A stretch of DNA of 64,000 nt from Ornithinibacillus bavariensis. GTDB taxonomy: Bacteria > Bacillota > Bacilli > Bacillales > Amphibacillaceae. Position 1 is the first letter of the stretch, and each line of letters begins with the position of its first letter. The stretch lies in assembly GCF_018333235.1 (NCBI RefSeq), contig NZ_BORP01000002.1:248001-312000 (forward strand), written 5' to 3'. Below the pieces are notes generated by a model. The model was not told where the DNA came from, ran no database searches, and saw only the letters and a program-made list of their open reading frames with translations. The position numbers and the translations under genes are program-made. This document shows, piece by piece, positions 58,204 to 61,398 of this stretch.

Positions 58204-58824
58204 ATGTATGTTATGAATCAAAGCGGCTGGCTAGAAGTAATCTGTGGCAGCATGTTTTCTGGTAAATCCGAAGAACTGATCCGTAGAGTAAGAAGAGCAA
58301 CTTATGCCAACCAAAAAATTCAAGTGTTTAAACCTGCAATTGATAATCGCTATGATGATGTTGCCGTAGTTTCTCACAATGGGAACTCAGTAAGAGCGAT
58401 TCCAGTCAATAGCTCAGCAGAAATCTTTGAAAAAATAGAATCGAATGTAGAAATCGTAGGAATTGATGAAGCACAATTCTTCGATGAAGATATAGTCTAT
58501 GTAGCAGAACAACTGGCAGACCGGGGTATCCGTGTTATAGCTGCTGGTCTCGACCTAGATTTCCGTGGTGAGCCATTCGGCCCAATGCCAGAGCTTATGA
58601 CTCTTGCTGAATCTGTTACGAAACTTAATGCGATTTGCCCAATCTGTGGATCTCCCGCAAGTCGCACACAGCGCTTAATAAATGGACAACCAGCATCCTA
58701 TAACGACCCCATTATCCTAGTTGGGGCATCTGAATCGTATGAACCAAGATGCCGCCATCACCACGAAGTCCCAAACCGCCCAACTAGTGCGGGAATGCGG
58801 AAGTTGCTAAATGTTGGAAAGTAA
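58204..58824 (+). CDS. tdk: thymidine kinase
   Basis: This 206-residue type II thymidine kinase phosphorylates thymidine in the salvage route. The P-loop is [14 protein letters not shown] (residues 15-28), the Walker B-like segment is [12 protein letters not shown], and [13 protein letters not shown] is the lasso-proximal motif. A structural zinc site is visible as CPICG near residue 148, with further ligands in [18 protein letters not shown] precedes the ATG. In B. subtilis tdk is close to prfA; here the NERD gene with its repeat arrays lies between. A terminator follows directly. Confidence 0.96.
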
Positions 58825-58841
58825 GTTATTTGATATTCGAG

Positions 58842-58869
58842 AAGAGCATCTTATGGGGTGCTCTTTTTT
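58842..58869 (+). terminator. tdk: terminator of tdk
   Basis: AAGAGCA (58842-58848) pairs with TGCTCTT (58859-58865) across a 10-base loop, followed by TTTT. Confidence 0.85.
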
Positions 58870-58897
58870 GGTTGAGTGGTGTTGTAAAGTGGATATT

Positions 58898-59006
58898 CGC
58901 TGATATATTTGCAAAAACGCTGATAAAATTTAATGTGCGCTGATATTTTTAATAAATCGCTGATATAACAAATTATTCGCTGATAACCAGCTCGAGTGCG
59001 CTGATA
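58898..59006 (+). repeat. CGCTGATA array A, six copies phased at 20 bp
   Basis: CGCTGATA begins at 58898, 58918, 58938, 58958, 58978 and 58999: spacings 20, 20, 20, 20 and 21. The 12-13 bases between copies are AT-rich and differ from one another. All copies are in the same orientation. The array lies between the tdk terminator and the NERD-domain gene. Twenty bases is about two turns of DNA, so all copies face the same side of the helix. Confidence 0.95.
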
Positions 59007-59111
59007 AATGCTATTAATCTAATCAGAAGAATAAATAACATTTTTTTGTTTAAAAGAGGGATTATTTGTTGTTTGTAGAATTTGTAATAGGGAAGGAGGA
59101 GATAAGAAGAA

Positions 59112-60089
59112 ATGATAGTGAAACACCGTACTAAGCCAAAGGAACTGTATAAATTAGAAGCAGCTGTAAGAAGAGTTACACAAACACATCCCTACTATGA
59201 AAGGTTACAAATGGATTTAAAGAGGAAGAGACGGCAAATTACAGGTGAGAAAGAAGTAGATTATCCACTTCGTTTCTTAGAGGAGAAAGAAAACTTAATA
59301 CTCCATGACTTACGCCTTAAGGATGAACAAGGTTATTTCCAAATTGATTCGCTAATTATATGTAAGAAGTATTGTTTAATCTTAGAAATGAAGAATTGGT
59401 ACGGAACCATTCTATTTGATGAGAATAATCAAGTTATTAGAATAGGTGACGGTGGTAAAGAAGAAGGATTCCCCAATCCAATTCCTCAAGCACAGCTCCA
59501 GCAATATCGGCTAAAAAAATGGTTGTACAAAATTGGTATTACAGCTCATCCAGTTGAATACCTAGTGGTTATTAGCTTTCCCAGTACAATTATTAAAGCC
59601 ACCCCCAAAAGTAAAATCCCTGAGAGAGTCGTCCACAGCAAACAGTTAATATTTCATATTCATAAATTAGATAATCTGTATAATCCAACCACAATCACAA
59701 TTAGAAAACCGAAAAATATAGCAAAACGATTAGTTGAGTCCCATCAAGAAAGTGACAGGAACTTTTTCGATTCATACCGAATAACAATTAATGACCTTAT
59801 TAGAGGAGTGTTTTGTCCAGAATGCTCTTTTGTGCCAATGATAAGGGAACATCAAAAATGGGTATGTTCAAAATGTGGTTTTCAATCAACGGATGCTCAC
59901 ATACAGGCATTATCAGACTATAGCTATTTAATTAGTTCAACGATTACTAATAAAGCAGCAAGAGAATTTTTACAGGTTAGTTCACCACACGTAGTGAAAA
60001 GATTGCTTCAGCAAGGGGGCTATGAGCAGATTGGGATCAATAAAGGGCGAAAGTATAGGTTAGATTCTTTAAGAATACAAAATCGCTGA
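59112..60089 (+). CDS. NERD-domain nuclease-like protein with zinc ribbon
   Basis: This 325-residue protein has a nuclease-related (NERD) domain at about residues 45-160, of the PD-(D/E)xK fold. The likely active residues are Asp79 in YFQIDSLIICKKY and Glu92-x-Lys94 in LILEMKNWYGTI, and QAQLQQYRLKKWL provides the Q-helix. A zinc ribbon follows, with Cys235, Cys238, Cys252 and Cys255 (FCPECSF, VCSKCGF). The final 60 residues (NKAAREFLQVSSPHVVKRLLQQGG) look like a helix-turn-helix with a small wing. It has no signal peptide. GGAAGGAGG precedes the ATG. It is inserted between tdk and prfA. Repeat arrays lie on both sides, and its last codons and stop (AAT CGC TGA) are inside the first repeat of array B. 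The cellular target is unknown. Confidence 0.85.
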   Translation: MIVKHRTKPKELYKLEAAVRRVTQTHPYYERLQMDLKRKRRQITGEKEVDYPLRFLEEKENLILHDLRLKDEQGYFQIDSLIICKKYCLILEMKNWYGTILFDENNQVIRIGDGGKEEGFPNPIPQAQLQQYRLKKWLYKIGITAHPVEYLVVISFPSTIIKATPKSKIPERVVHSKQLIFHIHKLDNLYNPTTITIRKPKNIAKRLVESHQESDRNFFDSYRITINDLIRGVFCPECSFVPMIREHQKWVCSKCGFQSTDAHIQALSDYSYLISSTITNKAAREFLQVSSPHVVKRLLQQGGYEQIGINKGRKYRLDSLRIQNR

Positions 60090-60172
60090 TAAGTAGAAAA
60101 ATACGCTGATAAAATAATGTAAACGCTGATAAATGGCAAGATTCGCTGATAAAATGAATAAAGTCGCTGATA
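60084..60172 (+). repeat. CGCTGATA array B, five copies phased at 20 bp
   Basis: CGCTGATA begins at 60084, 60104, 60124, 60144 and 60165: spacings 20, 20, 20 and 21. The first copy contains the stop codon of the NERD gene. The last copy is followed by TAACACATTATTC, nearly the same as TAACAAATTATTC after copy 4 of array A, so the two arrays share some spacer sequence as well. Orientation is the same as in array A. Confidence 0.95.
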
Positions 60173-60268
60173 TAACACATTATTCACAGAAACAGTCAAA
60201 GAGACGATGACATTTTCTTTCGAAGTTCTGATTAGGTTCCTTGTACCATCTCGTTTTTTAAAGATATT

Positions 60269-60297
60269 TTGACCTCTACCCCTTTGTATACTATAAT
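60269..60297 (+). promoter_or_regulatory. vegetative promoter of prfA-prmC
   Basis: TTGACC (60269-60274) and TATAAT (60292-60297) are exactly 17 bases apart, 30 bases before the prfA ATG. It gives prfA transcription independent of the inserted NERD gene. Confidence 0.8.
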
Positions 60298-60327
60298 TAT
60301 ACTGTTAATCTGAGTGAGGTGACCGTG

Positions 60328-61398
60328 ATGTTAGATCGATTACAAGCTTTAGAAGATCGTTATAATAAATTAAATGAGTTATTAAGTGATCCGGAAGTAA
60401 TTAGTGATACAAATAAATTACGAGAGTATTCCAAGGAGCAGTCTGGACTGGAGGATGTGGTTCAGGCGTATCGTGAATATAAAGAAGTAACAGAGCAGCT
60501 GAAGGACGCTAAGGAAATGCTGGAGGACGACTTAGACAAAGAGATGTATGATATGGTTAAATCAGAAATCTCTGAGCTTAGTAAGTTAAAAGAAGAGTTG
60601 GAAGAGAAAATGAAGATTCTTCTATTACCAAAGGACCCGAATGATGACAAGGATGTATTCGTGGAAATTCGTGGTGCTGCTGGTGGGGATGAGGCTGCAT
60701 TATTTGCTGGGGACTTGTACCGCATGTATACACGTTATGTAGAGAGTCAAGGATGGAAAGCAGAAGTAATGGATGCACATACTACCGGTGTTGGTGGATA
60801 TAAAGAAATCATTTTCATGGTTAAAGGTCAGGGTGCTTACTCTAAGCTGAAGTTTGAAAATGGAGCTCATCGTGTTCAACGTGTCCCAGAAACCGAATCT
60901 GGTGGCCGAATTCATACATCTACTGCAACGGTTGCTGTTTTACCTGAGGCTGAAGAGGTAGAAGTGGAGCTTCATGATAAGGATATCCGTGTGGATCTAT
61001 TTGCATCCAGTGGACCAGGGGGACAAAGTGTTAACACGACCATGTCTGCTGTGCGTTTAACACACATACCAACAGGAATTGTTGTTTCGATGCAGGATGA
61101 AAAGTCACAGATTAAAAACAAAGAAAAAGCAATGAAGATACTTCGTGCTCGTGTATATGATAAATTCCAACAGGAAGCACAGGCCGAGTACGATGAACAC
61201 CGTAAAATGGCCGTTGGAACTGGGGACCGTTCGGAGCGAATTCGCACGTATAATTTCCCACAAAATCGTGTAACAGATCACCGAATTGGACTTACCATTC
61301 AAAAGCTTGATCAAATTCTAGAGGGTAAGCTAGATGAAGTGATTGATGCATTGATTATGGAAGAGCAAGCCAAAAAACTAGAGCAAATTGGTGAATAA
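60328..61398 (+). CDS. prfA: peptide chain release factor 1
   Basis: This 356-residue factor recognises UAA and UAG and triggers release of finished peptides. The codon-recognition tripeptide is Pro-Glu-Thr (residues 187-189, [15 protein letters not shown]). The catalytic GGQ is at residues 231-233 ([11 protein letters not shown]), whose glutamine is methylated by PrmC, encoded next. The ATG at 60328 is 6 bases after GAGGTG and gives 356 residues, the length of the B. subtilis protein; a GTG nine bases earlier is less likely. It is followed with one base between genes by prmC. Confidence 0.97.

Follow-up and report, generated by a model that had tools for sequence, protein, structure and literature searches.

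The 64,000-nucleotide stretch of Ornithinibacillus bavariensis DNA analysed here, referred to as the window, carries two phased repeat arrays between the syntenic neighbours tdk (58204..58824, + strand) and prfA (60319..61398, + strand), both named from a reading of the sequence. The gene enclosed by the arrays (59112..60089, + strand) encodes a protein of 325 amino acids, which combines a NERD domain of the PD-(D/E)XK type, a zinc ribbon, and a winged helix, according to the open reading frame, Pfam and an AF2 model. The upstream array (58898..59006, + strand), placed between tdk and the gene start at 59112, consists of six copies of CGCTGATA with steps of 20, 20, 20, 20 and 21 bp. The downstream array (60084..60172, + strand) consists of five copies with steps of 20, 20, 20 and 21 bp, and its first octamer (CGC TGA TA, 60084-60091) contains the TGA stop codon of the gene. 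All 11 octamers have a single orientation; the original prediction had described the six and five phased copies at exactly these coordinates, and each was confirmed. A promoter-like sequence (TTGACC-17-TATAAT) is found at 60269-60297, before prfA. A known structured RNA element was ruled out as the identity of the arrays, since the region 58700-60400 gave 0 Rfam matches at E ≤ 1.

The octamer CGCTGATA occurs 14 times in the whole window, compared with a mean of 1.10 and a maximum of 4 in 100 dinucleotide shuffles. The longest chain observed in 58825-60318 has six members, and 2000 order-1 shuffles yielded one chain of three at 19-22 bp and none longer. The three remaining copies in the window (14907, 20203 and 42661) are isolated, on the + strand and out of phase; about one is expected by chance. 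As the original prediction had noted, the spacers mostly differ, with mean pairwise identities of 0.28 and 0.44 in the two arrays (A+T 79% and 82%). Neutral tandem repetition by slippage would be in keeping with some very long, near-identical arrays found in other genomes, which reach 27 copies (L061) and 41 or more (L074). Nevertheless, words that stay constant while the spacers differ, in the window and at sites shared between genomes, argue strongly against it, as do the restricted spacing in a sample of genome G057 (19-22 bp and 40-43 bp) and the association of arrays with the gene family described below. As a general explanation, slippage is hardly credible. For the window arrays, chance and slippage were ruled out by the shuffles, the differing spacers and the G057 spacing census.

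The NERD domain (aa 44-155; 59241..59576, + strand) matches Pfam PF08378 with E 3e-20 and 73.1 bits, against a gathering cut-off of 22.1. The domain was also matched at E ≤ 0.01 in all 32 members of alignment A1, a paralogue set hand-picked from matches to the window protein. D79 and K94 are invariant among the 32 relatives and E92 is nearly so (E or D); in a larger set of 100 family proteins, 89 have E in column 92 and 11 have D. The D...(D/E)xK residues of PD-(D/E)XK nucleases are thus present in the domain, and the putative catalytic residues are kept. The zinc ribbon (CxxC...CxxC, aa 235-255; 59814..59876, + strand) has four cysteines invariant in the 32 relatives and resembles the TFS4 zinc ribbon in structure (prob 0.98, E 0.24). 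It is followed by the winged helix (aa 262-318; 59895..60065, + strand), with a putative recognition helix at 292-301 and a wing at 308-316. The AF2 model of the 325-aa protein has a pLDDT of 89.4 and a pTM of 0.80. At E ≤ 1, Pfam returned NERD and three weak zinc-ribbon-like matches; the transposase Y1 domain (HUH, IS200/IS605-type) was absent from these matches. Among PDB sequences, no relative of the window protein was found at E ≤ 0.1.

Phased arrays accompany the genes of this protein family. An array was scored where at least three exact heptamers, spaced 19-23 bp apart, lay no more than 900 bp from the gene. In a first set, 85 of 108 full-length family genes had one, against one of 21 other NERD genes; with 20 shuffles of each flank, the array rate was 0.000. 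In an enlarged set, with two short cases set aside, arrays occur at 98 of 129 distinct family genes; the corresponding figure for other NERD-related ORFs is 3 of 32 (Fisher 3e-12). The 98 of 129 are not a random sample, the genes being mostly the best matches to the window protein or A1, with a few, e.g., L242, obtained via array searches. No exact-heptamer array was detected within 900 bp of the other 31 genes by a test that misses degenerate and AT-rich arrays, such as TGAATTA x4 at L046. Outside the window's taxonomic family, 18 of 33 genes have arrays by our own count in the first listing. As for the three array-bearing ORFs of the comparison group, L250 represents the C-terminal part of a disrupted family gene, L181 is a full-length distant relative outside the order, and L271 a 438-aa ORF. 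The three further NERD genes of the window genome have no arrays. The association of arrays with NERD genes, as originally proposed, therefore holds for one NERD family and fails for NERD genes generally: the other NERD (PF08378) proteins share the domain, but 29 of the 32 tested ORFs lack arrays, and arrays as a property of all NERD genes were ruled out.

The phase is independent of any chosen motif. Autocorrelation of 258 family flanks gave peaks at lags 21 (2.12), 42 (1.82) and 20 (0.84), against at most 0.51 for 67 flanks of other NERD-related ORFs, which bears out the helical phasing suggested from the window. The word varies from one family gene to another, and several paralogues per genome each have a different word. 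Where a gene has arrays on both sides, the two flanks mostly share their word: word and orientation are identical in 32 of 36 pairs.

The change of words can be followed at fixed loci. A family gene adjoins prfA in 16 genomes of several genera (Ornithinibacillus, Lentibacillus, Virgibacillus, Oceanobacillus), and tdk was seen on the other side in 12. At this site, 14 of the 16 genomes have arrays that satisfy the filter, with words as different as CGCTGATA (window, G057), TCCCGAAC, TCCCGAAT, CGCTGAAC, ACTGAAT, CGCCGATA, CGCGGAA, and others. Compared with the window, the family protein of these orthologues has 38-50% identity, PrfA 81-93% and Tdk 68-90%; the family gene is fast-evolving. A second syntenic site in Ornithinibacillus, spoIIID-[gene]-mbl (names from our reading of the sequences), has GGTTGAT arrays flanking the gene in G094, GAGCGATGT arrays in G096 and ATGTGTCCG arrays in G095, in all three cases on either side; no array was flagged there in G098. 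Since the words differ at both syntenic sites, word and protein change jointly on both flanks without moving.

This synteny bears on the proposal, also made in the original prediction, that gene and arrays form a mobile or homing cassette that moves as a unit, with solo arrays as empty targets or scars. Solo arrays or relics do occur at tdk-prfA in congeners without an intact gene, namely a GGTCACA array in G098 and a decayed series in G099 (own reading), and G101 combines a broken copy with an array. In the latter (L250, 2740-3858), the tdk-prfA family gene is split into two ORF pieces, and the adjoining GCTCATA array has five copies. The suggested alignment of the tdk-prfA junction gave no clean insertion edge among the gene-less congeners. 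Mobility is contradicted by the presence of the gene at the same site in 16 genomes and by its absence from the mobile collections searched. Only 4 of 72,556 plasmid records and 1 of 50,697 phage records match the window protein, all partially and below 60% identity; no plasmid or phage match covers 80% of it, and a scan of IMG/VR with two peptide patterns only found no relative. The cassette was ruled out at this locus on both grounds and is improbable as a general account.

The family is chromosomal as far as searched and most likely inherited vertically for the most part. At E ≤ 0.001, a threshold that also admits distant NERD proteins, the window protein has matches in 121 of 146 genomes from its taxonomic family. 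With A1 at E ≤ 1e-30 and at most 7 candidates scored per genome, the order gave matches in 222 of 299 genomes, many of which have multiple copies. A phylum sample searched with A1 at E ≤ 1e-20, with at most 5 candidates scored per genome, gave matches in 20 of 398 genomes. The full-length matches in this sample all come from the order, except for a weaker one in another genome of the same class (G613); the matches from elsewhere in the phylum stop by model position 246 of 323.

Distribution also weighs on another explanation, according to which the protein is a defence or addiction nuclease: the arrays would titrate it or mark self, and array-less DNA would be attacked, or the enzyme released upon loss of the locus. 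The predicted fold aligns best, with modest scores, to PD-(D/E)XK enzymes, several of them defence-associated (Can2, McrC); weak HMM matches to segments of MAD6 and PglW and the several paralogues with different words per genome would also suit this role. Yet in scans of three family members, the best NCBIfam defence match reached 27 bits against a cut-off of 460 and the best PADLOC match only E 0.0007, and both the absence from the mobile elements searched and the vertical inheritance speak against it. A defence function is therefore unlikely. Spore, replication or defence roles were all considered for the family, and no evidence for them was found.

The protein itself indicates which part may recognise the word. 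Across 86 genes, identity in the winged helix is the best predictor of motif similarity among four protein regions (Spearman 0.256; NERD 0.212). The partial correlation with motif similarity is 0.156 for the winged helix given NERD and 0.057 for NERD given the winged helix. Motifs are alike in the same orientation only: of 55 pairs at 60-80% identity, 38% are alike forward and 2% in reverse. A scan of 289 alignment columns was made over the 100 of 131 full-length family genes with definable motifs, the others being left out. With overall identity controlled, the best four columns (310, 284, 297 and 312) all belong to the winged helix, and 9 of the top 15 fall within 262-325, a region holding 18% of the columns. 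Column 310 (0.172) exceeds the highest of 200 shuffle maxima (0.140; mean of maxima 0.078). Columns 284, 297 and 312 (0.133-0.114) are below that maximum, and the fifth-ranked column is E92, in the nuclease domain outside the winged helix. The scan leaves some phylogenetic signal, relatedness being incompletely removed.

Since the columns that best track the word are in the winged helix, this domain very likely reads the octamer, and the co-variation of residues and motifs gives us high confidence that the protein binds its own arrays. The original prediction that the arrays are binding sites for the encoded protein is in this respect likely to be right. Position 293 ranks sixth (0.088), below the shuffle maximum of 0.140. 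Of the 24 genes with His293, 17 go with GCT, compared with 13 of the 76 others; Tyr293 is paired with CCGA in 6 of 11, and Asp293 with CGGA in 7 of 13. As sole determinant, this position was rejected: its Fisher association is real, yet relatedness is uncontrolled.

Arrays are also dispersed away from the family genes. Among 159 genomes of the taxonomic family, 10 have CGCTGATA arrays with at least three copies, and the reversed control pattern was found in 0. Among these ten, a family gene is flanked by the exact word in five (G000, G057, G087, G106 and G117, the last with four exact CGCTGATA upstream) and by a close variant in two (G066, G107). G056, G153 and G046 have CGCTGATA arrays, yet none of the family genes seen there has that word. 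In G057, two of 15 CGCTGATA arrays are beside the cognate gene and 13 elsewhere. Arrays of GCTAAAG were found in 9 of 159 genomes and the reversed control in 6 of 159, a control that, at least in G057, probably catches units reading GAAATCGCTGATA. G100 has nine GCTAAAG arrays (seven solo, two flanking the gene), each of exactly 5 copies at 21 bp. G094 also has GCTAAAG arrays, several of them shortened, but no close homologue of the G100 GCTAAAG gene. The original prediction had counted on arrays occurring with NERD genes and not at unrelated sites. Solo arrays far from family genes do exist, and to that extent go against it; many share their word with a family gene of the same genome, dispersed arrays and cognate gene co-occurring in G057, G100, G045, G052 and G117, and the exceptions are G094, G056, G153 and G046, where no gene with the same word was seen. 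Arrays without a cognate gene fit arrays that have outlived their gene, and also another reader of the word.

The spacing of the dispersed arrays is narrow. An evenly stepped 400-kb sample of G057 contains six arrays with spacings of 19-22 bp, and the ranges 13-18 and 23-31 bp are empty. Only three of the six match exactly a word found at one of the four family genes of this genome (GTTGATC once, GGTTGAT twice). The 40-43 bp class comprises four arrays, three of them outside ORFs, and is read as harmonics of 21 bp. In the window, the same scan found one array at 26-28 bp and another at 29-31 bp, both inside ORFs. Two 200-kb samples from genomes without a family match (G134, taken from positions 0.1-1.56 Mb of 3.3 Mb, and G091) had no arrays. 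One solo array of G057 is duplicated at a second locus (L189:2919-3279, L199:2845-3273) together with about 90 bp before and 160 bp after it; the copied segment takes in the final bases of the adjacent gene, and the two arrays have 6 versus 9 copies.

Three solo sites are orthologous in G100 and G094, with 5 and 4, 5 and 5, and 5 and 3 exact words; they were picked because both genomes carry arrays there. Spacer identity at these sites is 50-53% in the best register and 29-50% in other registers, the words being kept better than the spacers. At the hemQ-cwlJ junction (names from our own reading), 11 congeners were compared. GCTAAAG is present in G100 and G094, TCGGCGGAT in G097, and TCCCGATG with TCCCGAA units in G096, whose prfA-side gene has TCCCGAAC. 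Only a relic of the 3' end was read in G102, G103 and G098, and nothing in G000, G099 and G101.

The main rival to the explanation given below is a host regulatory or architectural system, in which the protein coats the arrays and has a nuclease fold that is inactive at these sites or incidental. Looping between the flanking arrays would give autorepression, and solo arrays would have local roles such as insulating neighbouring transcription units; both the system and these roles are possible, but the chances are appreciably against them. Such a system would account for words mostly kept at orthologous intergenic sites while spacers drift, for hemQ-cwlJ arrays differing in word between species as if place mattered and not the word, and for the 5 copies in 9 of 9 G100 arrays. 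On the other hand, D79, E92 and K94 are kept, and 6 of the 11 congeners have no recognisable hemQ-cwlJ array. Rapid turnover of words is, besides, unusual for a housekeeping regulator. Array placement is inconsistent as well: by the ORF maps, solo arrays stand after genes in G057 and between divergent genes at 4 of 7 sites in G100. A rule that solo arrays follow the direction of the upstream gene holds for every co-directional case in G057 (7) and in G117 (2); it fails in G100 and was rejected.

The explanation we favour, with somewhat more than even confidence, is a two-part nuclease-array system of the Bacillales, in which an array-bound nuclease would maintain and spread arrays of its preferred word. 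The winged helix very probably binds the octamer, at about one protomer per 21 bp, and some 5-6 copies two helical turns apart would line up as many protomers along a single face of the DNA. The gene is bracketed by two arrays, the same element stands alone in other intergenic regions, and protein specificity and word would shift jointly and fast on both gene flanks. The bound protein would most likely cut or nick the arrays, and repair or recombination at the cut arrays would then maintain, re-copy and spread whichever word the protein prefers. Binding and the dispersal of cognate arrays are well supported. We infer that the nuclease acts at the arrays and thereby maintains or spreads them. 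Dispersal by the nuclease would rest on the one clear ectopic copy in G057, which ordinary recombination would explain equally. A stronger form, in which a sequence-specific PD-(D/E)XK nuclease writes, maintains and disperses arrays of the word it reads, making the repeat system self-referential, is more tentative and rather doubtful. If true, word and winged helix would chase each other in a PRDM9-like turnover, giving species-specific vocabularies across the Bacillales.

The closest parallel is RAYT/REP. According to two papers (PMC2817692, PMC8049555), the RAYT gene is bracketed by its own repeat, cognate extragenic repeats are dispersed, repeat and protein coevolve, and the gene outpaces its neighbours in evolution and is inherited vertically. 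These traits have counterparts in the nuclease-array family, the dispersed cognate repeats in part, since G094, G056, G153 and G046 are exceptions. The components differ: the enzyme is a PD-(D/E)XK/NERD protein with a winged helix instead of an HUH Y1 transposase, and the repeat consists of phased head-to-tail non-palindromic octamers instead of a palindrome. Flanking copies are direct, as the 32 of 36 pairs in the same orientation indicate, whereas those of RAYT/REP are inverted. In numbers, there are 15 and 9 arrays per word in the two best-studied genomes (G057 and G100), compared with the 37-427 perfect REP copies that those sources give for a genome. By analogy, the nuclease-array system appears to resemble RAYT/REP in its working but is not RAYT/REP; the two would have evolved independently to serve the same role.

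Iteron and other cooperative arrays (Rep-iterons, ParB-type) are likewise direct repeats about two helical turns apart, presumably bound cooperatively. In contrast to these, the family is chromosomal and has no replication or partition gene, its arrays flank the gene on either side and also occur elsewhere, and the word is gene-specific. In the open-access literature, judged by title and abstract, no prior description of a nuclease-array system was found. The flanking arrays, the gene-specific words and the winged-helix residues that change with the word suggest a so far undescribed system of protein and repeat that is widespread among relatives of Bacillus. According to a 2022 paper (PMC9040797), the role of bacterial NERD had, to its authors' knowledge, never been studied before. 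The arrays give the domain a concrete candidate DNA target, readable from the genome for each protein, and about 100 natural protein-word pairs would provide a ready specificity code for the winged helix. The system would also account for a class of Bacillales intergenic repeats.

Some features of individual arrays may be added. The G100 arrays share the 3' end GCTAAAGATTATGTnAAyy. The extra ATTATGTnAAyy follows the last word in 9 of 9 GCTAAAG arrays of G100 (L067, L297-L303) and 7 of 8 of G094 (L304-L309), and by our reading it survives in G102, G103 and G098, where the array itself is gone; it forms a second conserved site. At the hemQ-cwlJ junction of G095 (L332), a 63-bp tandem repeat (3 x 21) is found where congeners have 21-bp arrays. 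In G057, CGCTGAT and GTTGATC arrays lie at successive junctions of an apparent purN-purH-purD operon, as named by us (L191, 3061-3152 and 4763-4834).
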